From NCBI GenBank assembly GCA_949741925.1, contig CATJOY010000050.1:1-64000 (forward strand): a DNA stretch of 64,000 nucleotides, in the 5' to 3' direction. A program made the translations under genes and the position numbers. Below the pieces are notes generated by a model. The model was not told the DNA's origin. It did no database searches and saw only the letters and a program-made list of their open reading frames with translations. Numbering within the stretch: position 1 is the first letter of the stretch; every line of letters starts with the position of its first letter. Below, piece after piece: positions 3,253-64,000 of the stretch. The DNA comes from an uncultured Desulfovibrionaceae bacterium. Lineage in GTDB: Bacteria; Desulfobacterota; Desulfovibrionia; Desulfovibrionales; Desulfovibrionaceae.

Positions 3253-4128
3253 CTATAACAGAAAGGAGGTTAGAATATAGTCCGCAACAAGGATCAAAAT
3301 GCAGGAGGTGACCACAGCGCTGGTCGTGGCGTTGCCCACGGCCACCGGGCCGACGCCGTCGCGGCGCATGTGGGCAAAATATCCTTGAAAACAGCTGATG
3401 GAAGAGACAATAAGAGCAAAAACCAGCGACTTGATAAACCCGCCGCTAACGTCATGCCAAACCACACTGGTATCTATACGATAAAAATAAACGCCGCCGT
3501 TCATGCCCAGCATGATCACGCCGCTGACGTATCCACCGAGAATGCCTATAACGTCAAATAGCGCCGTCAGGAGAGGAAAGGTGATCAAACTGGCGGCAAT
3601 ACGGGGCGAAACCAAATAGCCCAGGGGATCGATATCCATGACTGTCAGCGCGTCGATTTGATCGCTGATGCGCATGACGCCGATCTCAGCAGCCATGGCC
3701 GAGCCGGCGCGACCGGCCACCATAATGGCCGCCAAAACCGGCCCGAGTTCCATAATGAGGGAGAGGGCTATCAGTGCGCCAAGCATCCCCTCAGCCCCAA
3801 ATTTTACCAGGGTATAGTATCCCTGCAGCCCCAATACCATACCGGTGAAAGCCGCTATAAGGGCGATGAGAAAAAAGGACCGAGCGCCGATAACGTACAT
3901 CTGCCGAAAAATCTTCCGTAGCTGTTTTGTTCCGCTGAAGAGTGCTTTCAGACCGGCAAGCATAAACAAAAAAACAGCTCCCATCTCTCCGACAAGCCGG
4001 ATGAATGAGCCGCCAAAAGCCGCTATGGGCGCTGCAAAATGCCCCGGTAAAGATATATCTGCTTGGTCTTCTTTGCTCACACAATTGTACCCGTTGGTGT
4101 TAATGCCTTCAACTTGCCCCAATGCCAA
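3253..4128 (-). CDS. mlaE: MlaE, ABC transporter permease
   Basis: 291 residues, with about 60 hydrophilic or amphipathic residues before the MlaE/YrbE permease core. The core contains FTGMVLGLQGYYTL, LIMELGPVLAAIMVAGRAGSA and the EIGVMRISDQIDAL coupling segment that is diagnostic of the family. It is an integral inner-membrane subunit that pairs with MlaF. It follows the SPOR-protein stop by only 7 bases and so belongs to the argS-SPOR-mla run. Confidence 0.93.
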   Translation of the reverse strand: MALGQVEGINTNGYNCVSKEDQADISLPGHFAAPIAAFGGSFIRLVGEMGAVFLFMLAGLKALFSGTKQLRKIFRQMYVIGARSFFLIALIAAFTGMVLGLQGYYTLVKFGAEGMLGALIALSLIMELGPVLAAIMVAGRAGSAMAAEIGVMRISDQIDALTVMDIDPLGYLVSPRIAASLITFPLLTALFDVIGILGGYVSGVIMLGMNGGVYFYRIDTSVVWHDVSGGFIKSLVFALIVSSISCFQGYFAHMRRDGVGPVAVGNATTSAVVTSCILILVADYILTSFLL

Positions 4129-4135
4129 TTAGGCG

Positions 4136-4909
4136 TCAAGGCTTTACCGGCTTTTTACTGCGCATCAGAATACGATCAATTCCCATAGTGGAGAGCTTGT
4201 CCCTCAGGAGACGGGTATCATCCGGTTCCCCTCTGAAATGGACTAAAGTTTTATACCAGGTTGTCGTTGCCGTGGCCTGTTTTTCTACAGAAGCCTTAAG
4301 CCCCGCAGCTTGAAGGCGCTTGCGCAATGTTTCGGCGGGTTCGTTTCCTTTGAACGCCGCAACCTGATAAACGTAGTCAAAGGTCTCCCGAACCGGCTGG
4401 GCTGCGGGGGTGGATTTCCCGGTTCCGGTCTGAGCAATCGAGGGCTTGGCGGCTGGGGGACGTGATGAGGCAGCCGGAGGGATCGGCCGGGTATTGCCTG
4501 TCGAGGGAGTCTTAGAAGGCGAAGGAGTCCGCCCCGTCGAGGGGGCGTTTGCAGAAGTACCTTTGAGACTGGTGTGGTAAGCAAGTTCATCCGGCCGCAG
4601 AATGCTGTCAGCAGGGGAGGGACTAGAACTCCCCGTAGAATTATCGGGGGGCACATCAACAGAGGCAGCAGGCGTGCTCTCCGGGGCTGAAGGCATCAGA
4701 TTTGCCAATTCGGGCAGTTTGTCTTCCGGATTCAGGCCGCGCCCCAGCAAAATGCCAAAGAAAAAGACCCAGATGAGCACCCCGCCGCCAAAGAAAAGGA
4801 TCGCCAGCAAACGGCCAAAACTGAGCGTAAGCCGGAATTGCCGCTGTAAAAAATTTTGCGTTGGTCTTGCCTGCGGGGCTCCATTCCCGACGCGTTGCGG
4901 CATATCCAT
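4136..4909 (-). CDS. SPOR-domain membrane protein
   Basis: 257 residues: a short cytoplasmic N-terminus, one membrane helix (about 35-58, LLAILFFGGGVLIWVFFFGI), a long Pro/Ser/Thr-rich linker (about 65-170), and a C-terminal SPOR domain (about 172-250) starting YVYQVAAFKGNEPAETLRKR. SPOR domains bind glycan strands lacking side peptides at division sites. The architecture resembles FtsN or DedD but does not identify an orthologue. Only 25 bases separate it from argS. Confidence 0.82.
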   Translation of the reverse strand: MDMPQRVGNGAPQARPTQNFLQRQFRLTLSFGRLLAILFFGGGVLIWVFFFGILLGRGLNPEDKLPELANLMPSAPESTPAASVDVPPDNSTGSSSPSPADSILRPDELAYHTSLKGTSANAPSTGRTPSPSKTPSTGNTRPIPPAASSRPPAAKPSIAQTGTGKSTPAAQPVRETFDYVYQVAAFKGNEPAETLRKRLQAAGLKASVEKQATATTTWYKTLVHFRGEPDDTRLLRDKLSTMGIDRILMRSKKPVKP

Positions 4910-53265: not shown

Positions 53266-53622
53266 GGGGGCGCACTGGTTTCGACGGGGACGTGGAAACC
53301 GTGATTGCAGGCCGAGGCGCCGCTGGCCTCGTAAAAAGCGGCACAAAAGTAATTGGCAACGATTACGAATACGCTTACGCTGCTTAATTAAGCAGCCCGT
53401 GGAGGATGACTGATGCCTGATACGTCGCCGAAGCGGTCATACTTTTTCAGGCTGGCGCTCAGAGCTGTCTGCCGGGACGAGCGCGAGACCTTAAGGCGGA
53501 CTGGCCGTGTACCGCTCTGACCGGGGGCAACGTGCACGGCAAGAGAGAAACCTGGTCTAAGCCTGTAGATATTACGAGTGAAAACTTCTCGGACGCGGGT
53601 TCGATTCCCGCCGCCTCCACCA
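53266..53622 (+). ncRNA. ssrA: tmRNA (ssrA)
   Basis: The 5' end GGGGGCGCACTGGTTTCGAC and the 3' end TTCGATTCCCGCCGCCTCC-ACCA form the tRNA-like half (GGGGGCG pairs CGCCTCC with one G-T). The tag frame at 53355-53387 reads GNDYEYAYAA-stop, starting at GGC. tmRNA frees stalled ribosomes and tags their products for ClpXP/ClpAP. Its 3' end is a common phage and island integration site, and a broken integrase follows here. Confidence 0.97.
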
Positions 53623-53646
53623 TTTCATAGTCCAACAAGGACTAAG

Positions 53647-53686
53647 AAAGGCCAAAATCTATTGAAAAATAGGGATTTTGGCCTTT
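53647..53686 (+). terminator. terminator after ssrA
   Basis: Perfect 13-base-pair stem AAAGGCCAAAATC/GATTTTGGCCTTT followed by TCTCTT. Confidence 0.92.
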
Positions 53687-53802
53687 TCTCTTGTCCGACC
53701 CCATCCGGTAAAAACCAACTTCGTACTCAATTAACTTGAGTAAGAATTTGAGTAGGGATGAAAGAAACTTCTTACTCAAATTGACAAAAGCGAGGGGCGG
53801 CA

Positions 53803-55160
53803 ATGAAAACAAAAGAATGCCGGTAATAAGAAGCGCTCAGAGTTTACGGCAAAATTCATTGAGTCGTTGAAGCCTACAGAGAAAGAAGAACGCTATACGG
53901 ATGTAAAAACACCCGGCCTCACCCTCGCCGTGTACCCTGCATCCCCTTGGAAGCCGAATGGCTCCAAGAAATGGCGCTTTCGCTATATGTACGGCGGTAA
54001 GGCTATGCTACGGTTTCCCTCAAGCAAGCTCGCGAGAAAGTTTTTAAAGCCTGAAAACTGCTTGATAAGAACATTGACCCATCACAAGAAAGAAAAGCGG
54101 AGAAAATAGCCTCCAAGCCCTTTCCAGCTTCCGGGGGATAGCCGAAGTCCGGCTCGACGACCGCCCAGAAAACAAGTGGGAAGAATCCCACGCCAAGCGC
54201 AATAAAGAACGCTTCATAGGCAATATTTTTCCTGTCATCGGCATGAAGAATATCAATGAGTTGACTTTGAGCGACTTCGACAAGGCGTTTACCCCTATCA
54301 AGCGCCGGGGAGCTTTGGAAACGGCGCACCGGATTGTGCTATGTGCATTGAAATCTTGAGCTACGCCGCCCGCTTCCGCTATCTGGAAGATAAAAATCTC
54401 ATTTTCGACTTACAGCAGTACAAGGAAGACCTGCCCCGCCCAACGAAAGGCAAGCTTGCCACGATCACGCAGCCGGATGAAATAAGCGAACTGCTCTGCA
54501 AGATTGACGAAGCGGAAGCACGGCAGACATACCCGGCAGCGCTGGCGCTCCAAATTGCGCCGTATGTTATGTTGCGGCCCGGCGAACTGGTCGGTGGCCG
54601 GTAGGATAAAATCAATTTTGACAAGGCTGAATGGTACATCAAAGCCGAGCGCATGAAGCCGGGATTCGACCATGTAGTCCCCCTCCCCGTCAGGCCATGG
54701 AGCTGATAAAGAAACTGCACTACTTCACGGCAACGGGGAATATATGTTTCCATCCTCAAGCCGGGGCCGAGGAGAACACCTCACCACGGCAACCTTGGTT
54801 ATGGCCTTACGCCGTATGAAATACCAATCCGGCGACTTCACCACGCACGGCTTCCGAGCCATGGCAAGCACCATCCTGAACGGGAACAAGACGCATGAAA
54901 TAAAAGGCTTTGACCTACCCGCATATGACCCGGATCTGATAGAAGTTCAGCTTTCCCATGCTGAAGAAAACAAGATCCGTAAGGCTTACAACCGGCGCGA
55001 CCCGTACGCCAGAATTCAGGAAAGGCGGGAGATGTTACAGACCTATGCGGATTTGCTTGTTTATTTCAAGTTACATCCCCCCAAAAAGTTACATAAAGAG
55101 GGGGATACTATTGAGGCTTCCTATTCCTTTTTCTTTGTTTTTTTGCTGCCTTTTTCTTAG
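53803..55160 (+). pseudogene. decayed P4-type tyrosine integrase
   Basis: The original start is ATG 53803 (GCGAGGGGCGG upstream). One extra A near 53813 breaks the frame; beyond it the arm-binding domain reads FTAKFIESLKPTEKEERYTD then WRFRYMYGGKAMLR. Further frameshifts lie near 54030 and 54350, a TAG at 54602-54604 sits where Trp is expected, and there are more shifts near 54690-54780. Catalytic remnants are still visible: YVMLRPGE (Arg), HGFRAMAST (His-x-x-Arg) and QLSHAEENKIRKAYNR (His and Tyr). It lies 181 bases after ssrA, so it once inserted an island there and is now dead. Confidence 0.92.
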
Positions 55161-56643
55161 CCTTCTCTTTTTTTAATTTATAACGAAGTATCTCGCTCAT
55201 TTCGAAAATAGTGATCTTTTCTTTTTTATCACTATATGCGTGGTTTATGGCCGATAGTTTAACTTTTTGGAAAAAATTCATTTCAGTACGAATTTTTTTT
55301 GCGTCTTTATATTGTTCATAAGTCCAATCACTAGAATCTAAATAAGCCATATCCTCACTGTTTCCATCAAATCTTGTTGGACTACGTGGGTCAAAAGCCA
55401 AACCTACTGTTATTGAGTATTCTGGGAATAAATCCTTACAAGCGAAGCAATAAGCCATAAGAAACGATTTTCTGTCTTCACGATAGGCATTATAGTCAAG
55501 ATATGTTGACGAATGAGGGAGAATCAGCAAAACATAACATACATCTGAATTGGATGGAGAGCTTAAAACTCTCACGCGAGGTTGACTTGCGTCCTCTTTA
55601 AAAGCAGGCCAAGCCCATTCCAAAAAGTTATTTGATAAGATTGTCCTACCGATTCTTGATTCTGCCGCCATGAATTTTAAAGGAAGAATTTCTTCATCAT
55701 AGCTATCAGCTGAAGTATACCCCCAATTTCCAGTAAAGGCATGCTGGCCTATCCTTTCAATTATACTGTCCCACAAAAATGAAGGCTCTACAAATTCCTT
55801 TAAAGCTCTATAAACATTCTTTTGAGTGTAATCGTCATATATCCCCTCTGTAATAATTGGAGTTACCCCTGCATAGATGCTGTTAAAGTCTGGAAAATTC
55901 AATTCATATGTAAGATGACTTTCATCACGGCTTGATAGATAGAGTCCAATTAGCTCTTGCTCTCCTTGTGCAATAGCTTTTTGTGTTGTCAAAAACACCT
56001 CTTTCTTACTTAAATAGTCAATAAAATCACTAATTGTATCGAATTCTTTAAATAATATGTCTATGCCTTCATCATCAAAAAAATGGACAAATCCTTTGTC
56101 TTTGTCTGGTATTCCTATCTGAAATGGAAATTTAAAGATTTCCTCACCTTCAAAAAATGGACAAAGAAGTAACGAACCACTTTTTCCTCCAAAATACTTT
56201 TTCGCATGTTCTGCAATCCCTCTGGTGACGACAATACGATGAATTTTAACTGTAGCTGCATCAGGAATTTCAACCGGAAAAGGTTGAGAGCATTTTCTAT
56301 CCAAAAATATCCGTGAGCTAAACTGCTTAACCCATTTTTCCGCTTGGTAAACTTGATAAGATGACTTCAAAAAAGCCTTCTTTACCCATCGTGGCCAAGA
56401 AATAGCCAAGTCGTTTTCAGAAGAAAACTTGACTTCCCCTTTATCGGAAAAAATCAAAACATGCTCATTGAAGACCACAAGTAAGTCACAAAGTTCCTTG
56501 CCTTGGCCCTTGGCTATTCCGTCATCTGTATATACATTTGGAAAGGACCATAAGCTTAAGAATGTTTTTTCACATAGTGTTGCAAGTATGCGTTCTGATT
56601 CTGTGACCTGTCCTGATTTCATAATATTTCTTCTAGCTGTCAT
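55108..56643 (-). CDS. AT-rich 511-residue protein with possible nuclease-like N-terminus
   Basis: 511 residues from ATG 56643, chosen for AGGGGGCGT just upstream (ATG 56622 is an alternative). The DNA is much richer in A/T than the core genes, a sign of transfer. The N-terminus has a pattern compatible with PD-(D/E)XK/NERD-like folds: an early Glu (TESERILATL), Asp in GKELCDLLVVF, and Lys in VLIFSDKGEVKF. The middle shows no recognised domain, and the C-terminus is a very basic tail (KKKAAKKQRKRNRKPQ). Its 3' end overlaps the integrase remnant tail to tail. Function unknown; an accessory or defence role is only inference. Confidence 0.75.
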   Translation of the reverse strand: MTARRNIMKSGQVTESERILATLCEKTFLSLWSFPNVYTDDGIAKGQGKELCDLLVVFNEHVLIFSDKGEVKFSSENDLAISWPRWVKKAFLKSSYQVYQAEKWVKQFSSRIFLDRKCSQPFPVEIPDAATVKIHRIVVTRGIAEHAKKYFGGKSGSLLLCPFFEGEEIFKFPFQIGIPDKDKGFVHFFDDEGIDILFKEFDTISDFIDYLSKKEVFLTTQKAIAQGEQELIGLYLSSRDESHLTYELNFPDFNSIYAGVTPIITEGIYDDYTQKNVYRALKEFVEPSFLWDSIIERIGQHAFTGNWGYTSADSYDEEILPLKFMAAESRIGRTILSNNFLEWAWPAFKEDASQPRVRVLSSPSNSDVCYVLLILPHSSTYLDYNAYREDRKSFLMAYCFACKDLFPEYSITVGLAFDPRSPTRFDGNSEDMAYLDSSDWTYEQYKDAKKIRTEMNFFQKVKLSAINHAYSDKKEKITIFEMSEILRYKLKKEKAKKKAAKKQRKRNRKPQ

Positions 56644-56829
56644 ACGCCCCCTAACTACATTCACTATTGTCTACCAAAGCCGTGAGCTACTTGTTCCTGA
56701 CATTCATTCACCAGTATGTTTTTTCCTCTTTTTAGGTGCTCAAAACACCTTGACCAGCGACGGCTCCCACCCTGTAAGTTTGTGGGTTTTCTTGTGCCCT
56801 CTCGAAGGTGCTGGTTTCCTGCATTGTAC

Positions 56830-56908
56830 CTCCGGGTGTGGGCGCAATATAATACCTGGCAACAGGGAAATAGCCCGCCGTCTCGCTGGCGGTTTTGAGC
56901 ACCCGGAG
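56830..56908 (+). ncRNA. structured repeat element, copy 1
   Basis: Outer helix CTCCGGGTG (56830-56838) with CACCCGGAG (56900-56908). Inside is a hairpin CCTG-GCAA-CAGG (56855-56866) and a hairpin CCGCC/GGCGG (56875-56879, 56888-56892). Shared single-stranded parts include ATATAATAC and GGAAATAG. It lies 45 bases before the start of a small acidic-protein gene. Two more copies in the window keep these helices with different base pairs. Confidence 0.75.
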
Positions 56909-56953
56909 TTTCTCATTTTGAAGACTCCAATCAAAAAATCCAGCGAGGTTTTT

Positions 56954-57416
56954 ATGTCTGCTCCATCTCAACCCACTTTTGGTTCATCCCCCAACTTCAA
57001 CACTTTGGCAGAGAAGCTATAAGAAACAGCACAAGCCCTGCTTGGATTCAGCCGCGCCAATCAAATATCCGATCGACGCCAACGGGGAAGAAAAAACGCC
57101 TCCTGAACCCGCCTCAAAAAATGACGACAAGCCCTTCGAAATTCGTTCTTACGAATTACCATATTACATTTTGCACGACGAACAACAGCTACTCAAAATT
57201 GCCGACTCTGACGAACTGGTTGATGTTCTGAATAAAGCCTACGACCTCTTCTATTGCATTGCCAGCTTGATGAAACATTTCGGCCAAGAAGAGGAGGTTT
57301 GCGGCGTTGACCTGAACAATATAGCGCAAGTTCTCTCGCTTCCGCTTGATTGGCTAGAGCGATTGTCCAGTACCCTAAGCGGGTTTGAGTTAATCCATCA
57401 CATGAAGACCGAATAA
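56954..57416 (+). pseudogene. broken small acidic protein (family A, first member)
   Basis: ATG 56954 with CAGCGAGG upstream begins MSAPSQPTFGSSPNFNTL and then hits TAA at 57020-57022 where the intact relative at 60243 has Gln. Coding resumes as ETAQALLGFS, shifts frame near 57060, and continues as FEIRSYELPYYILHDEQQLL to TGA-less end TAA at 57414-57416. The C-terminal part aligns with the relative (EIRS, LM-HF, PLD-L-RL). It is probably not made as one protein, unless the 3' frame is started separately. Confidence 0.75.
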
Positions 57417-57579
57417 ACCAGCGCGTCCCGGGAGCAATTCCGGGCCGCTTTTTTCTTCCTGATTTGTGCCTTTGTGTTGAGCTTCCGCAGGAAGCGAATA
57501 AGCCAGCCCGCTGGGCCGGTCAGTTTGTTGGGACAAAAGTACCCTACAAACTCTGTCCGACCCTCCTATTCTATTCAAC

Positions 57580-57722
57580 GATATGCAAATAGGCCACTCG
57601 ATTTTAACATCATTGCATAAGTTTGCGTAACTTTGCATAAAATAACGTTTTTTGCATATCTTTGCATAAAATTGAACATTGCTGGCATATCGCTGCAATA
57701 ACTTCGCATAACTTTTAATACG
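57580..57722. repeat. iteron-like array of TTATGCAAA repeats
   Basis: On the minus strand, TTATGCAAAG, TTACGCAAAC and TTATGCAATG follow each other exactly 10 bases apart. Further matches (TTATGCAAAG, ATATGCAAAA, TTATGCGAAG, ATATGCCAGC) lie nearby with about 10- to 11-base phasing. One helical turn per repeat suggests cooperative protein binding, as in plasmid or island replication iterons or operators. It lies downstream of alpA. Confidence 0.55.
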
Positions 57723-57841
57723 ATAGGCTATAGCGGCCTTGGCAAGCTCAATCCCTGTAGTAGCTCGCTCATAGATTTGCAGCCGCCCTCGCGTTTCATA
57801 TCTGGCCACGGCTGCCGATCGGCAATAGGCGCTTGGGTGTT

Positions 57842-58072
57842 TTATCCAGCGAATGGCTTTTTAGTTTCGTCGTACTGGCCGGATTGTGCATAAAGCCGCT
57901 CGACCAAAGCGACTATGTCTTCGGTTCGCCATGCAGTTGTGTGCGGGCCAAGTTTTACAGGCTTCGGGTAACGTCCTGTTCGACAACCGCTCCACCACGC
58001 GCTCTTGCTCGCAGGCACTACGGCCCGCACTTGGGGAAGACGCATAAACCCGATAATGGAAGTATTGGACAT
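57842..58072 (-). CDS. AlpA-family excisionase/regulator
   Basis: 76 residues from ATG 58072 (CCGGGAGGTTTTCAA upstream). It is a MerR/AlpA-type winged helix: IGFMRLPQVRAVVPASKSAW then GRYPKPVKLGPHTTAWRTED. AlpA proteins act as excisionases or activators of integrases in P4-like islands, which fits the decayed integrase nearby. Key residues look intact. Confidence 0.85.
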   Translation of the reverse strand: MSNTSIIGFMRLPQVRAVVPASKSAWWSGCRTGRYPKPVKLGPHTTAWRTEDIVALVERLYAQSGQYDETKKPFAG

Positions 58073-58133
58073 TTGAAAACCTCCCGGATAGCTCATAATC
58101 CTTTTATGGAGACTGGAGCACGGGGTTTTCAGT

Positions 58134-58148
58134 AAACGGCGTTTACGG
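58134..58148. promoter_or_regulatory. palindromic operator-like site upstream of alpA
   Basis: GTAAACGGCGTTTAC is a palindrome around one central base, 62 bases before the alpA start. A second, ATGCAAAATTGCAT, lies near 58233-58246. Both are possible repressor sites. Confidence 0.45.
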
Positions 58149-58356
58149 GGTTTCGCCCGAAAAAGGTCGGCGTCCCTATGCGCATTTTTCAAAAATGATT
58201 TTTAGCCCTGACGGGGTTTGCTTTCCACGGATGCAAAATTGCATGCACCTGAAATGATTCATACAAAAAAAGAGGCGGCACCGACCTTTCGAGCGACACC
58301 GTAAGGAGAGATGTCGCGCTGCAAGGGATGTGCCACCCGCGCTTTTTTTGCTTTGT
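58149..58356 (+). other. possible small transcript between alpA and the toxin
   Basis: Around 58265-58350 the plus strand can fold (GCGACA/TGTCGC; outer GGCAC/GTGCC) and ends CACCCGCGC-TTTTTTT, like a terminator. It may be a small RNA, or only the tail of the toxin operon region. A 19-codon frame MSRCKGCATRAFFALFIVQ at 58312 looks like the start of a phage zinc-ribbon protein gone out of frame. Confidence 0.3.
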
Positions 58357-58662
58357 TTATTGTTCAGTGAATTGGAGGCTGCCGTGCATTACGCGAAGAA
58401 TCTGCACCGTGTTGCCCTTTACGCGGTAAATCAGCGCGTAAGGTGTGGCCTTGACGAGCCATTCCCTTGTATTGGGCATTCTTCCCGGCTTGCCCGCTCC
58501 AGGAAGCGTAGACAAGCGCTCAGGAGCTTTGAAGATGCGTTTAAGGTATTCTTCCACATCCTCAAAAGGCACGCCCTCACCAAGCAGGTAGTCGGTAACG
58601 CCATCCAAGTCTTTCCAAGAGCTTTCAGTCCATTCAATGGGCAAAGGGTTACGGGATGACAT
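58357..58662 (-). CDS. ParE/RelE-family toxin
   Basis: 101 residues with the ParE/RelE fold: PIEWTESSWKDLDGVTDYLL, RIFKAPERLSTLPGAGKPGR, and the C-terminal strands WLVKATPYALIYRVKGNTVQ ending ILRVMHGSLQF. The H-G near the end matches the family. Such toxins block gyrase (ParE) or cut mRNA (RelE); ParE-like is favoured by the RHH partner. It overlaps the antitoxin gene by 14 bases. Confidence 0.9.
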   Translation of the reverse strand: MSSRNPLPIEWTESSWKDLDGVTDYLLGEGVPFEDVEEYLKRIFKAPERLSTLPGAGKPGRMPNTREWLVKATPYALIYRVKGNTVQILRVMHGSLQFTEQ

Positions 58663-58894
58663 TGAAGCCCTTAGCCTTTAACCGCGCTCCCATTTCTTCA
58701 TGACTGATAGTGCGTCCTGCCTCGGCATCGTCTATTCCCTTTTGCGCCTCGGCCAGATACCATGTCTCACGCTCAAGGTATTGGGCCACGGCTTCCTTGA
58801 TTATCCAAGCACGGGGCCTGTCCATTTGCTCGGCCATCTTGTCGAGTTGTTCGCGAATCTTCGGGTCGAACCGGACTGTCGTTACTGACTGCAT
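58649..58894 (-). CDS. RHH (CopG/ParD-like) antitoxin
   Basis: 81 residues from ATG 58894 (AAGGAGTAAAT upstream). The ribbon-helix-helix N-terminus is SVTTVRFDPKIREQLDKMAE with RPRAWIIKEAVAQYLE. The C-terminal part (EAGRTISHEEMGARLKAKG) would wrap the toxin. It precedes and overlaps the toxin gene, the usual order, and probably represses its own promoter. Confidence 0.9.
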   Translation of the reverse strand: MQSVTTVRFDPKIREQLDKMAEQMDRPRAWIIKEAVAQYLERETWYLAEAQKGIDDAEAGRTISHEEMGARLKAKGFNVIP

Positions 58895-59040
58895 ATTTAC
58901 TCCTTGCGTAGTCGCATGTATTCTCATATATGCTTAGAGCATACGCTATTCAAAGCTAAACTGCAAGGTTACAAGAATTTTCTGCCTCAAAGCCTAGTGC
59001 CACAACAAGTCAGCTTTACAGACACTATATTCCGGAAACG

Positions 59041-59229: not shown

Positions 59230-59912
59230 AAGTGAGGGCCCCGCCGATATGCCATCGGAGAAACGTGACGGCATTTTTGACGGTACTTCAAAATCTCTAT
59301 TCAAAATTATACTGTTATTTCAGCGCAATAAAAATACCCACTCGGTCCCCATTTAGGAGTGTCGGGGTTTTTCCCGAAAAAACCGGAAAAAACTGGACGT
59401 GTCATGTAAAAAGGGGACAAGAAAGTAGCGCTTGTCCCCATATACCAAGAAGCTTGTATCCTAGGCTTTCCCTCGCTGAAGACGCCAAGGAGCAAGGCAA
59501 GGAAGGCGACTCCCTCTTGACGGTTCCGCCTGTCTGATTTTGTTGTCATAGCTCCATATTCTACTGCATCAAAAATAGGCTCGATGGGCTAGACTCTCGC
59601 TCCTGGGATTGCCGGATTACCTAATCCTTAATAACGGCTTATAAATTTTCTGTGCATTTCCACCAGTTTGCATAGTTCAAGGGGAACCTTGAAAGCCGCT
59701 GCCGCCAGCAGTATTATTTCGATAAAAAGCATCTTTGCTAGGTGCCACACGTAAGAGGAATCCTGTTTGCCTCATGGCCCACTCGTAAAACCTTATTAAC
59801 AAGGTGCCTATGCGATATCTGCAAGTTCATCAGAGGCAAATTCTTTTGCCAGAGTTTTCAATAAGTTCTTGAGGCGGTTCCTATTTGACTTGAAAATGTG
59901 AAAATAGACATG
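59230..59912. other. gene-poor remnant region
   Basis: No supported gene. A hairpin GGGGACAAG/CTTGTCCCC at 59413-59439 may be a terminator. On the minus strand just after element copy 3, ATG 59911 opens only 17 codons. A different frame there reads NRLKNLLKTLAKEFASDELADIA to a stop, which suggests a decayed small gene. Confidence 0.45.
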
Positions 59913-59957
59913 AGGCGCTCTGTTGGTTTTACTATTGGAGCCGGCGATAGCAACAAG

Positions 59958-60033
59958 CTCCGGGCGCTAGTAACCGCCAACGGACGACGGACTATTTCCC
60001 CTTGCGGGTATTATATTTCATCTACACCCGGAG
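59958..60033 (-). ncRNA. structured repeat element, copy 3
   Basis: Read on the minus strand: outer helix CTCCGGGTG (60033-60025) with CGCCCGGAG (59966-59958; one G-T), hairpin CCC-GCAA-GGG (60008-59999), and hairpin CCGTC/GGCGG (59990-59986, 59978-59974; one G-T). Flanks share GGACGTAG, ATGAAATATAATACCC and CGGCTCCAATAGTAAAAC with copy 2. Only a decayed reading frame follows. Confidence 0.75.
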
Positions 60034-60199
60034 ATACAATGCGAGTGCTACGTCCTGGAAAAAATGTAAAAAAACACAAACAACTCCTCTTCTCTCTTTT
60101 TACCTTCCTCATTGGTGCCACTCTTCGCCGTTGTTTTTGAGCACCGGAGAAAATCCTGGAAAGTTGCAAAGCGCATGGCAAGCAACAATACAAGGCAGA

Positions 60200-60242: not shown

Positions 60243-60683
60243 CTATCCTATATCCGGATTATCTTCTGCAACAGGATGAAAATCCGCTATCAGAGAGCAC
60301 AGGCGGTTTAAGATATCCAGTGGGGCCATGAACGTATTCCCCATGAGTTGGATAGAAAATCCGTTAATTGCTTCATCAGCCTCAAAATGCTGCATGAGCA
60401 GCGCCTGGGTGTAGAGCTGTTCGTAGGTCTTATGAAACATCTCCTGCCAATTTTCCGCATTGAGCAGTTCAAGCAGCTTCCTTTCTTCGTCAACAATAAA
60501 TCCTGGAATGTGGAAGGAGCGGATTTCAGAAGGCGCTTTTTCTTCAACCGGTGGTTCGGCTTCTTTTTTTGTGGCCGCAGGCGAAGCAGCAAAAGCTAAC
60601 AAATCCTGTGCCGTGGCTTGCAACGTTTCAGCTAGTTCGGCGCAATCGGGAAGATTTTGACTTGCGGATGTGACAATAGGCAT
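60243..60683 (-). CDS. Small acidic protein (family A, intact member)
   Basis: 146 residues from ATG 60683, with CACTGGAGCGCC upstream. The N-terminal helix LAETLQATAQDLLAFA is followed by a Lys/Glu/Pro linker and a C-terminal domain (about 50-135) with EIRSFHIPGFIVDEERKLL, YEQLYTQALLMQHFEADE and APLDILNRLCSLI. The broken gene at 56954 is a clear relative. No known family, signal peptide or membrane helix is seen. The structured element (copy 2) ends 48 bases before its start, and its own terminator follows, so it is a self-contained element-plus-protein unit. Confidence 0.78.
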   Translation of the reverse strand: MPIVTSASQNLPDCAELAETLQATAQDLLAFAASPAATKKEAEPPVEEKAPSEIRSFHIPGFIVDEERKLLELLNAENWQEMFHKTYEQLYTQALLMQHFEADEAINGFSIQLMGNTFMAPLDILNRLCSLIADFHPVAEDNPDIG

Positions 60684-60730
60684 GAGGCGCTCCAGTGAGT
60701 TTTACTATTGGAGCCGGCTACAACAACAAG

Positions 60731-60807
60731 CTCCGGGTGCTAGTAACCGTCACTGGAACGGCGGACTATTTCCCCTTGCGGGTATTATATTTCATCCACA
60801 CCCGGAG
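60731..60807 (-). ncRNA. structured repeat element, copy 2
   Basis: Read on the minus strand: outer helix CTCCGGGTG (60807-60799) with CACCCGGAG (60739-60731), hairpin CCC-GCAA-GGG (60782-60773), and hairpin CCGT/ACGG (60761-60758, 60750-60747). Upstream, GTTTGTGG and the block AGAGAAGAGGAGTTG (near 60927-60942) are also shared with copy 3. It directly precedes the intact small acidic-protein gene. Confidence 0.78.
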
Positions 60808-61046
60808 GTATAAGCGAGTACTACGTCCTAAAAAGAACGTGAAGAATCCACAAACTTTCGGGGTGGGAAACCGCCAGCGTAAGGCGTTACTAGCGCCTGC
60901 AAAAACCCTAACCACAAAGAGCTACACCGTCAACTCCTCTTCTCTCCTTTGGCCTCCTGCGCCCAAAAAGCCCTTAGCAAGATTCCTTTGTTCATCTGAC
61001 GCCCCCTGACGCTCACAAGCCTGCTTCGCCATAAAAAGAGACAAAA
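60808..61046. other. stretch between the element and the Hxs locus
   Basis: No gene seen. It holds the upstream flank of element copy 2, including GGCGCTAGTAACGCC (a self-complementary segment on the minus strand), and the likely right side of the accessory region. Confidence 0.4.
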
Positions 61047-61107: not shown

Positions 61108-61368
61108 TTAGTAACGGCTGGGGTAATGGGAACGGTGGCTTGTATGGCTTGAATGGCTTTTATGGCTGTAGTGCGCGGGAACCAGCGTTTCGGGAGCCTG
61201 CTGCTCAAGAACATCTGAAAATACCAACAAACCGTCAGAGGCCTCCGCGCGCTTCTGCGGCGTACCCTCCGGCACGGCCGTATTCGCCTGCCCCTCCTGG
61301 TGGCCGAGGCCAAGGCTCGAAGCGACGAACCCGGCACAGAGAAAGAGCGTGTAAATAAGCTTTCTCAT
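61108..61368 (-). CDS. His-Xaa-Ser repeat protein (HxsA-type substrate)
   Basis: 86 residues from ATG 61368 (ACAGGAG upstream). A Sec signal peptide (about 1-20) is followed by a spacer and a C-terminal run HYSHKSHSSHTSHRS at residues 66-80 (five exact H-x-S triplets), then HYP and the end SRY. The His-Xaa-Ser system is a predicted peptide-modification system with radical SAM maturases HxsB and HxsC, HxsD, and repeat proteins HxsA; the two maturases lie directly upstream. It is much smaller than a classical HxsA, so it is HxsA-type rather than a firm orthologue. The chemistry is not known. Confidence 0.82.
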   Translation of the reverse strand: MRKLIYTLFLCAGFVASSLGLGHQEGQANTAVPEGTPQKRAEASDGLLVFSDVLEQQAPETLVPAHYSHKSHSSHTSHRSHYPSRY

Positions 61369-61403
61369 CAAAAAAACTCCTGTATGGTTTGCAAACTGCC
61401 CCT

Positions 61404-62600
61404 TTAGGGGCACCCGCCCGGTTCCTCTGCGTCGGTTGCGGAGTCATTCGGCGGAGTGAAACATACTTCCTCTTTTTTTAGTGGGTGGATATGGTCGAGC
61501 GGCAACGATGCCGAGGTGCCGAAGAACCCGGCACACGCTTCTTTGCGCTCGCATGAATCGCATTGGGGAAGATAAATATTTTTCCAGGAAGCAATGGATT
61601 GGCGCAAAAAAGGCCTGATCTCAGGGGCACACAGACAAAGGGGGATATTATATACCGAAACGGGCAAGCCGCGGCGGGCCAGGGCAAGAACCGCGGCTCG
61701 CAATTGTTGCTGGTATTCGTAGGGTGCAACAGCAACAACAGTGCTGTTGCACGCCGCATTGCCGCAAAGTTCCATCCCCATAAAGACATAATGGGCACAG
61801 AAGGGAAAGTAGTTATACAGGTGCTCAGCAAATGATTCCAAAAATTGAGCGTTTTTTCGGCTGATCACATGGCGTATTTCTATCCTGCATCCTTGTTCTG
61901 CAAGATGGTAGATGCCTTGTTGTGTTGCTATATAGCTTCCTGGTGCTCCCGTAAGGGTATCGTGCAGCATATCAATTTCAGAATGCAAGGATACGCAGAA
62001 AAGAACATTGGGGGTTGCCGCCTCCCCTACCCGCGCGGCAAAGCGCCTGTCAGCAAACGCTTTGCCGTTGGTGAGGATATCAATACGCGCCTCCGGATGT
62101 TCACGGACACAACGACGCAGTAAGGCCACAAAGTCTTCACCTAACAGGGTGGGCTCTCCTCCCGTAAGGCAAAGCTGGGTAAGGCTGCGGCCACGCAAGA
62201 GATCAAGCACAGCCCGGGCCTCGCAAAGGAGCGCCGGGTCATGCGCGCGCGGGGGTTGCGGGCACATAAGGCAAGAGCAATTACAGGCTTCTGTCACAAG
62301 AAGGGCGTTATGCGCCGAACCTGTTTCCCAGAGAACATGCGCCTTCCCGGCGCTATCCAGGCGCACAATGTCGCCATCACCAAGCTGTTCCAGGCCGTCT
62401 ACGCCGAACAGGTGATCCGGATGAAAAAAGCGTCCGGCCGGGCCGGAGGTAAGGCAGGCCCTGTAGCCAAGCGCTCCCCTATCCATTCGCGGCGTAACCA
62501 GGATGGCGCGGCTCCGCGCATAAAAGGGCCGAGAACGGAGGGCGATCTCACCAATGATTGGGGCAAAACGCCGGGACGGTGTGCCCTCAAGCGTCTTCAT
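61404..62600 (-). CDS. hxsC: Radical SAM maturase, HxsC-like
   Basis: 398 residues. The 4Fe-4S motif is EACNCSCLMCPQPP (Cys106, Cys110, Cys113), with LTGGEPTLLG as the SAM-binding glycine motif and HSEIDMLHDTLTG in the barrel. The C-terminal cluster region has QCDSCERKEACAGF. HxsC-type proteins have this CxxxCxxCxQPP signature. It overlaps HxsB by 14 bases and ends 35 bases before the repeat-protein start, so the three form one operon. It would modify the His-Ser repeats of the secreted substrate (inference). Confidence 0.85.
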   Translation of the reverse strand: MKTLEGTPSRRFAPIIGEIALRSRPFYARSRAILVTPRMDRGALGYRACLTSGPAGRFFHPDHLFGVDGLEQLGDGDIVRLDSAGKAHVLWETGSAHNALLVTEACNCSCLMCPQPPRAHDPALLCEARAVLDLLRGRSLTQLCLTGGEPTLLGEDFVALLRRCVREHPEARIDILTNGKAFADRRFAARVGEAATPNVLFCVSLHSEIDMLHDTLTGAPGSYIATQQGIYHLAEQGCRIEIRHVISRKNAQFLESFAEHLYNYFPFCAHYVFMGMELCGNAACNSTVVAVAPYEYQQQLRAAVLALARRGLPVSVYNIPLCLCAPEIRPFLRQSIASWKNIYLPQCDSCERKEACAGFFGTSASLPLDHIHPLKKEEVCFTPPNDSATDAEEPGGCP

Positions 62601-64000
62601 GGCCCTGCGCCACCAGAGGATTGTGGGTTATCCAGCTCCAGATGATATCCTGCGTCTGTTCATCAGCCTGCCGCAGGCGTTCAAACAGACCGTCGAACAA
62701 CAGCTTGTGTTTAACGCAAAAAGGCGTGCCGGCCATTGTTCTGAGTTCATCCCCGGTTTCCAGGTAGTTACGGATAGGATCCGCGCCGCAGTAACTTTGA
62801 TAGACGCACCAGGCGCAGGGAGGCGTTGTTTCCACGCAGGCCCGTGTTGTCAGCGCCTTAAGCCGTGAGGAGGCGAACAAGGCGCTATAGCTATCCCGCA
62901 GCACGTTCCCCAGACAAAAATGTCTATCCCCCATGCGGGCAAGCATGCGCGCTTCATCCGTAGGAAAGACCGAACCATCATAATCATAGATGACGCCGCT
63001 GATTCCTGCTCCGGCCGGGGATTGCAAATCCACAAACCCCGTTGCAAAGGGCGTGAGTATGCGCGAAAAAAGAAGCGCGGCAAAGTGCTCCGGAAAATAG
63101 ACTCGTCTATTGACGGCCAGTATGGCATCGAGGGCTTCAAGGTAGCAGGCGGCAAAATCAGCCGCATCATACCCGAGGGCGGCAGCTTGTTCCGCCGCAA
63201 ACCCATAGGGATTCAACGAGCGTATACATATCCCCTTCATCCCCCGGAGCAGGTATTCATCAATAACCTCTTGCAAATGGTGCAGTGAAAAGGCGGACGT
63301 GGTCATCAGAGCATCCACGGCGTCAGGGCCGAGAAAAGCCCGGGCCTGGTCCAGCTTTTCCAGAAAAAGCGCATGCGTGCCGCTGCCGCCACGCGTTTTG
63401 CGGCAAGCGTCGTGTAGGGAGGCCGGGCCATCTAGGGAGGTGGATAGAGCAATATGGTGCTCACGACAAAAAGCAAGCTGCGCCTCAGTTATTGCCAGAA
63501 GATTGGTACAAATGACAAAATCAACGGCCTTACCGCTCTCGTGAGCGCATTGCTCCGCATAGAGAACCGCGGTTTCGAGTACCGGCCAGTTGAGTAACGG
63601 TTCTCCGCCTTGAAACTCTATTTTGGGGTGGCTTGTGGGGGCCTGAAAAATCATCTCCACCACCCGCCGCGCCACAGAAGCAGGCATATCAAAGCATCGC
63701 GCGTCTTCTTCCGCACTGGAGGCCTGACAATACGCGCAGCGCTGATTACAACGCAGGGTGATGACCATCATGTGTAAGGTAGTGAAATCCCTTAAGAACG
63801 ATTTACGCGTACGGTACCGAGCGGCTAACTTCTGTAAAGAGACCTCCAGTTCATCCTGGGCAAGAAAGAGATGGGATTTCAGAGCAAAAAAGGCCGGATC
63901 CGTAGGCTCCAGGCGGTGGCGCACAAAGTTCTCAAAGGTCTCACGGGGGAAAAATTGAAAGTCCCCGCCCTCGTTAACCAGGAGCATATCCCCCTGTGGC
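62587..64000 (-). CDS. hxsB: Radical SAM/SPASM maturase, HxsB-like (5' end outside window)
   Basis: At least 470 residues. The frame continues past the ATG at 63987 to the window edge (PQGDMLLVNEGGDF), so the true start lies beyond 64000. An N-terminal substrate-binding region is followed by the radical SAM motif LRCNQRCAYCQASS and EFQGGEPLLNWPVLE. A C-terminal SPASM-type Cys array reads CVETTPPCAWCVYQSYCGAD and PFCVKHK. It matches the HxsB description, paired with HxsC. The missing partner HxsD would be expected beyond the right edge. Confidence 0.85.
   Translation of the reverse strand, partial: PQGDMLLVNEGGDFQFFPRETFENFVRHRLEPTDPAFFALKSHLFLAQDELEVSLQKLAARYRTRKSFLRDFTTLHMMVITLRCNQRCAYCQASSAEEDARCFDMPASVARRVVEMIFQAPTSHPKIEFQGGEPLLNWPVLETAVLYAEQCAHESGKAVDFVICTNLLAITEAQLAFCREHHIALSTSLDGPASLHDACRKTRGGSGTHALFLEKLDQARAFLGPDAVDALMTTSAFSLHHLQEVIDEYLLRGMKGICIRSLNPYGFAAEQAAALGYDAADFAACYLEALDAILAVNRRVYFPEHFAALLFSRILTPFATGFVDLQSPAGAGISGVIYDYDGSVFPTDEARMLARMGDRHFCLGNVLRDSYSALFASSRLKALTTRACVETTPPCAWCVYQSYCGADPIRNYLETGDELRTMAGTPFCVKHKLLFDGLFERLRQADEQTQDIIWSWITHNPLVAQGHEDA

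Follow-up and report, generated by a model that had tools for sequence, protein, structure and literature searches.

The locus at the end of the window (the whole 64,000-nt stretch that was analysed) is, on sequence grounds, a complete hxsDBCA operon and a fresh member of the known His-Xaa-Ser (Hxs) family. By analogy with characterised enzymes, the likeliest mechanism, to which we give a probability of about 0.45, is that its two radical SAM maturases would install three-residue His-to-Ser side-chain cross-links in the precursor before Sec export. The Hxs system is credited, in a citation carried by PMC9062424, to Haft and Basu. A sequence-only reading of this DNA had named it the strongest candidate there for an undescribed biochemical system, which is too strong for the genes, as all four are already named and have NCBIfam models, but holds for product and chemistry: the searchable literature, which leaves most subscription journals outside its scope, yielded no paper on either. 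What is added here is a half-SPASM cysteine pattern, a pre-core motif in the precursor and a link to phage and defence elements.

Operon structure and family assignment

The operon is carried on the minus strand and is transcribed in the order D-B-C-A. The first gene, hxsD, lies outside the window (contig 64049–64378, minus strand), and its stop shares 8 nt with the start of hxsB (62587–64056, minus strand; 62587–64000 inside the window), a GTG at contig position 64056, 56 bases past the window edge. HxsB (489 aa, TIGR03978) and HxsC (398 aa, TIGR03977; 61404–62600, minus strand) are both radical SAM maturases, and their genes overlap by 14 nt. The start of hxsA (61108–61368, minus strand), which encodes an HxS-repeat precursor of 86 aa, is 36 nt past the hxsC stop. 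The window copy has the hxsD-B-C(-A) arrangement of an Hxs system, and hxsD, B and C were directly adjacent in that order at 24 of the 34 loci examined. Promoter and terminator scans returned fewer sites than in shuffled sequence.

HxsB scored 522–533.5 bits against TIGR03978 (equivalog cut-off 370) and HxsC 311.9 bits against TIGR03977 (cut-off 267.9), both far above their scores against any other radical SAM family. The overlapping radical SAM gene pair and the Hxs identity proposed in the sequence-only reading are thus confirmed, and hxsD, which had been set beforehand as a check beyond the window edge, was located there. The identity of HxsB and HxsC and the operon assignment appear well supported. 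The two small proteins scored lower: HxsD gave 35.8 bits with TIGR03976 (E 8e-9, cut-off 50), and HxsA gave 43.4 bits with HxsA2 NF038296 (E 5e-11) and 37.6 bits with TIGR03979 (E 2e-9), below curated cut-offs of 48 and 121.65, which are naming thresholds and not biological traits. HxsD fits the family-wide alignment and is placed as expected, directly 5' of hxsB, and we read these scores as probable divergence of two short, correctly placed proteins and not as absence. The window copy resembles the modelled family (TIGR03979/NF038296, TIGR03978, TIGR03977, TIGR03976) in its maturases above cut-off, usual gene order, HxS precursor and hxsD, and differs from it in the sub-threshold HxsA and HxsD and in a short precursor that lacks the peptidoglycan-binding domain at its tail. 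The genome has a single hxs copy, and among 58 relatives only one (G009) had an HxsB above the cut-off. The closest HxsB relative found (66% identity) is from a prophage-like contig (IMGVR_UViG_2562617176, locus L051), which also encodes a short, SRY-tailed HxsA; there, hxs has the gene of a giant phage protein on one side and that of a Rha antirepressor on the other, whereas the window copy lies beside a decayed tmRNA island.

The HxsA precursor

HxsA consists of a signal peptide, a pre-core, five HxS triplets and an HYPSRY tail. The signal peptide (MRKLIYTLFLCAGFVASSLG, 61309–61368, minus strand) is predicted from hydropathy, and the core, HYS-HKS-HSS-HTS-HRS, comprises residues 66–80 (61129–61173, minus strand); a sixth triplet is degenerate, reading HYP instead of HYS. 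The hydrophobic N terminus and five contiguous triplets are those of an HxsA-type precursor, agree with the small secreted protein with terminal H-x-S triplets described earlier, and make a predicted exported precursor well supported. A start at GTG 61413 was rejected, as ATG 61368 (MRKLIYTLFLC...) has an AGGAG ribosome site ahead of it. When the mature part was shuffled 200,000 times with its composition preserved, the longest run was three triplets (23 times), and runs of four or five never appeared.

Among seven E. coli copies, the protein sequence of HxsA hardly varies from the signal peptide through the pre-core to the end of the core, while the hxsB-C DNA falls to about 74% identity. At most 8 of the 15 core codons differ, all of the changes being synonymous, and the peptide is therefore under strong purifying selection. 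Across the family, a common anatomy is seen in which a hydrophobic signal is followed by a variable stretch, a hydrophobic patch (often LYFSD-like) at about −19 to −13 before the core, and then the core itself; of 35 precursors, 19 have L at −4 and 24 have A at −2. Cores have mostly 4 to 8 triplets, a regularity that is partly by construction since the runs were selected by an HxS search, and 14 residue types occur at X, of which S, R, Y and A are the commonest. Short forms stop 2 to 6 residues past the core (SRY, SSY, GW), and nine of ten long forms tested have a C-terminal peptidoglycan-binding domain (PG_binding_1), a link to the cell envelope. At one locus (L034) two hxsA genes (3556–3801 and 4106–4357) that differ in their X residues share one hxsDBC set. 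The HxsB loci L044–L047 are a distinct variant, with larger HxsD-like proteins, hxsC missing or elsewhere, and HxsA-like proteins of 9 to 19 near-uniform HGS units without a clear signal peptide.

The maturases and HxsD

Family alignments of HxsB (22 sequences) and HxsC (25 sequences) each show exactly seven invariant cysteines, in groups of three and four. In HxsC these are C106, C110 and C113 of the radical SAM motif CNCSCLMC (CxxxCxxC, then QPP; 62262–62285, minus strand) and the auxiliary-cluster cysteines C322, C347, C350 and C356 (61533–61637, minus strand), all invariant in 25 of 25. The window HxsB has the radical SAM motif CNQRCAYC (63727–63750, minus strand) and cysteines of Aux II type (CxxCx5C plus a distal C; 62716–62817, minus strand), which correspond to C407, C410, C416 and C440 in L051 numbering and are invariant in 22 of 22. 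The pattern, which supports one auxiliary ligand set per maturase well, predicts that three cysteines of each enzyme bind the radical SAM cluster and four a single auxiliary cluster. The SPASM-type Cys array of the sequence-only reading is therefore correct as to Aux II and not as to Aux I, at whose positions HxsB has no conserved cysteine; it lacks the two-cluster set of full SPASM enzymes and, because the Aux I ligands are absent and Aux II is kept, is a half-SPASM enzyme.

Structures were modelled from the L051 orthologues, whose HxsB is about 65–66% identical to that of the window. The HxsB model (pLDDT 88) matched best to the sulfatase-maturating enzyme anSMEcpe (Z 33.7, 354 residues), closely followed by CteB (Z 32.8, 404 residues). 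As the CteB alignment spans residues 5 to 458, it covers the N-terminal part of CteB, which we take to be its recognition domain. The N terminus of the HxsB model has three strands and three helices, a topology that fits an RRE-like domain; a sequence search with the N-terminal 78 residues alone gave zero matches. HxsB shares the fold of anSME and CteB (4k36–4k39, 5wgg), the CteB match extending over the N-terminal domain as well, and differs from them in its missing Aux I ligands and in its substrate.

The fold match to anSME brings in the main rival to cross-linking, in which the Ser of each HxS would be oxidised to formylglycine or a related carbonyl, the His staying in place as a ligand for metal or for recognition. 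The anSMEcpe structure, top by fold, is also second by sequence. The Asp after anSME Cys276, the catalytic base of that enzyme, has an invariant counterpart in HxsB, D360 of a DE[AG]RM motif, while Cys276 itself (in the YPCD motif of anSME) gives way to S, A or T in all but one of 22 HxsB sequences. Against oxidation, HxsB reached only 74.6 of the 349 bits that the anSME model requires, the Aux I ligands are missing, and the equal conservation of His and Ser and the need for two maturases would be left unexplained. We consider this alternative unlikely.

Among PDB entries, the sactipeptide maturase SkfB is nearest to HxsC in sequence, and structures of the epimerase EpeE are among the HxsB matches (Z ~16). 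Both would suit some other radical chemistry on the repeat, in which Ser or His is epimerised or adjacent triplets are joined to each other. As the EpeE matches are far weaker than those to anSME and CteB, and most HxsA cores have no Cys with which to form thioethers, chemistry of this kind seems improbable.

HxsD has no credible sequence relative in the PDB. The model of the L051 orthologue (pLDDT 90), with the order strand-strand-helix-strand-strand-helix, is that of a small alpha/beta protein. The best Foldseek matches were to RNA polymerase subunits of the AC19/Rpb11 type (E 0.011, TM 0.5), the VIA Z values of 7.2 or less are at a level frequent by chance, and no winged-helix RRE was present among the structure matches. 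Assigning a function to HxsD from fold matches was rejected, the Foldseek E value being 0.011 and the Z scores at chance level.

Modification chemistry

The preference for His-to-Ser cross-links is drawn from radical SAM enzymes that join an aromatic residue, His included, to the beta-carbon of the residue at +2 (reviewed in PMC11002830). Cross-links with this spacing include C2(His)-Cβ(Ala) formed by HaaB, C2(His)-Cβ(Arg) by YhhB, C4(Phe)-Cβ(Ser) by MscB, and Cβ(Tyr)-N(His) in dynobactin, and the H-x-S triplets of HxsA match the three-residue aromatic-X-X motif given by the spacing rule of the same review. Models for DynA, YhhB and GrrM/OscB were within the 25 best matches of HxsB, all below cut-off, and the cut-offs of triceptide maturase models were not reached (YhhB 57.6 vs. 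445, GrrM/OscB 54.3 vs. 310, FxsB 41.5 vs. 370 and AmcB 47.1 vs. 425 bits). The triceptide maturases (such as YhhB, HaaB and OscB/GrrM) and DynA are radical SAM enzymes that act on aromatic-X-X triplets, including His-X-X, as is predicted of the Hxs pair; unlike them, HxsB and HxsC are separate, paired families with one auxiliary ligand set each. The structure matches place HxsB at equal distance from anSME, which oxidises Ser or Cys, and from a cross-linking enzyme; this counts against cross-linking, as does the HYP found at the sixth triplet of the window copy. The missing Aux I points the same way: to our knowledge, the full-SPASM enzymes that form cyclophanes have it.

Radical SAM clusters require a reducing cytosol, and for this reason we place the modification in the cytoplasm, before Sec export; modification of His or Ser at that stage is consistent with a signal peptide on the precursor and cytoplasmic radical SAM enzymes. 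In the proposed cross-linking mechanism, the signal peptide and pre-core of newly made HxsA would serve as leader, and HxsA would be retained in the cytoplasm by the RRE-like N-terminal domain of HxsB with HxsD as partner. By means of 5'-deoxyadenosyl radicals, HxsB and HxsC would then link C2 or N of each His imidazole to the beta-carbon of Ser at the +2 position, so that three-residue rings follow one another along the core. Sec would export this product, which would be either periplasmic or associated with the peptidoglycan and would serve the mobile element or the host, perhaps against other phages.

Genomic setting and distribution

A mobile island at the tmRNA gene, now decayed, probably carries the window copy as cargo. 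The region 53266–58927 contains the tmRNA gene (ssrA, 53266–53622, plus strand; ARAGORN, RF00023 193.9 bits), the C-terminal half of a truncated integrase (54744–55160, plus strand; phrog_216, E 2.8e-6, profile positions 150–244 of 301), an AlpA-type (CP4-57) phage regulator (57842–58192, minus strand; PF05930, 23.2 bits, cut-off 21) and a ParE-type toxin/CopG-type antitoxin pair (58357–58662 and 58649–58927, minus strand), and GC content is down to 37% near 55 kb. The hxs genes are about 7.5 kb beyond the tmRNA gene, past the truncated integrase. Mobile elements are well known to land at the tmRNA gene (PMC10121019), and the hxs-bearing element probably integrated there. No tmRNA 3'-end repeat of at least 13 nt was found between the tmRNA gene and position 75000, and no comparable neighbourhood was found in relatives; the right border is therefore unset, and membership of hxs in the island is likely, not proven.

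Several other features of this region were noted. A 518-aa protein in GC-poor DNA (55108–56664, minus strand) has a sole match, phrog_18195, of unknown function (E 1e-66). On either side of the toxin–antitoxin pair is one of two paralogues, each about 145 aa long (60243–60683, minus strand, and 56979–57416, plus strand; 31% identity over 103 aa), the first without a Pfam match and neither with one in NCBIfam. A diverged repeat of about 90–300 bases is present in two direct copies and one inverted copy (59884–60105, 60656–60955 and 56821–56911), with weaker copies on genome contigs 88, 59 and 29. Past the operon, a PLP-dependent decarboxylase (contig 66843–68171, minus strand; L002:10844–12172) had no match in 19 relatives (E 1e-40) and so may have been acquired too.

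Mobility of hxs relatives is well supported by the contexts in which they are found. Many are carried by phages, P2-like prophages, P4-like islands and conjugative plasmids, and some stand beside Tn7-like genes. HxsB relatives were detected on nine viral contigs, in a Leptospira phage, and in 401 plasmid records, 316 of them from Klebsiella. Published genomes place hxs in islands of P. aeruginosa and V. parahaemolyticus, and 151 of 5,426 complete E. coli genomes carry it, with all 151 copies chromosomal. Prophage copies adjoin terminase or Rha genes; a PHROGs examination of the flanks of locus L052 found nothing. The HxsB tree mixes phyla, with an actinomycete among alphaproteobacteria and the Leptospira phage together with a Bacteroidota plasmid, and the HxsB proteins of the window and of G009, from the same bacterial family, fall in different supported groups. 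One hxs set is on a 330-kb MAG contig of Moraniibacteriota, a candidate phylum of small genomes (L036), which could reflect transfer or misbinning. A sucrose operon is near one hxs copy. In four of seven E. coli loci (L082, L084, L086 and L088) a 'sporadically distributed' TIGR04141/DUF6119 gene is just 3' of hxsA, partial or frameshifted in two of the four; its product is a possible fifth Hxs partner.

Biological role

An envelope or anti-phage role of Hxs is possible. Whatever its chemistry, the system might be cargo that acts at the envelope against phages or in superinfection exclusion, since P2 and P4 elements bear antiviral hotspots (PMC9122126), and in P2-like E. coli prophages hxsDBCA has ogr on one side and the late-control gene D on the other. 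In strain ECC-1470, Pycsar and Lamassu share a P4-like island with hxs, in FDAARGOS_946 hxs is in a tmRNA island beside Lamassu genes, and in CH468 it is near AbiL in the same island. The published P2 hotspot is another site, however, between gpA and gpQ (PMC9122126), and two of the E. coli loci have hxs by itself within a P2-like prophage. PADLOC gave the Hxs proteins no specific match, with weak matches of the radical SAM proteins to general viperin models and none for HxsA or HxsD. Defence neighbours prove nothing alone because mobile islands gather all kinds of cargo; the link of hxs to phage and defence elements is an association only, and we regard an anti-phage role as doubtful.

The dense His repeats of HxsA, together with the precedent of a copper-binding peptide with His cross-links (PMC10206099), would also suit a metal-binding envelope protein (copper, nickel or zinc) whose affinity is tuned by the modification. 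No recurrent metal transporter or regulator was seen beside hxs in the annotated regions read, and such a role is rather unlikely. A single chromate transporter is near a Novosphingobium hxs copy.

Hxs is widespread, being present on plasmids, in E. coli genomes, in phages and in several phyla, and since E. coli, which is easy to work with, has complete sets of all four genes, the chemistry and a possible anti-phage role are directly testable. The cysteine pattern and the pre-core motif indicate the first targets for mutation. Taken as a whole, the picture of Hxs as a mobile envelope defence or exclusion system, with a cell-wall chain of His-to-Ser rings made by paired half-SPASM enzymes as its effector, is a long shot; if it were true, that effector would be a new class of exported peptide.
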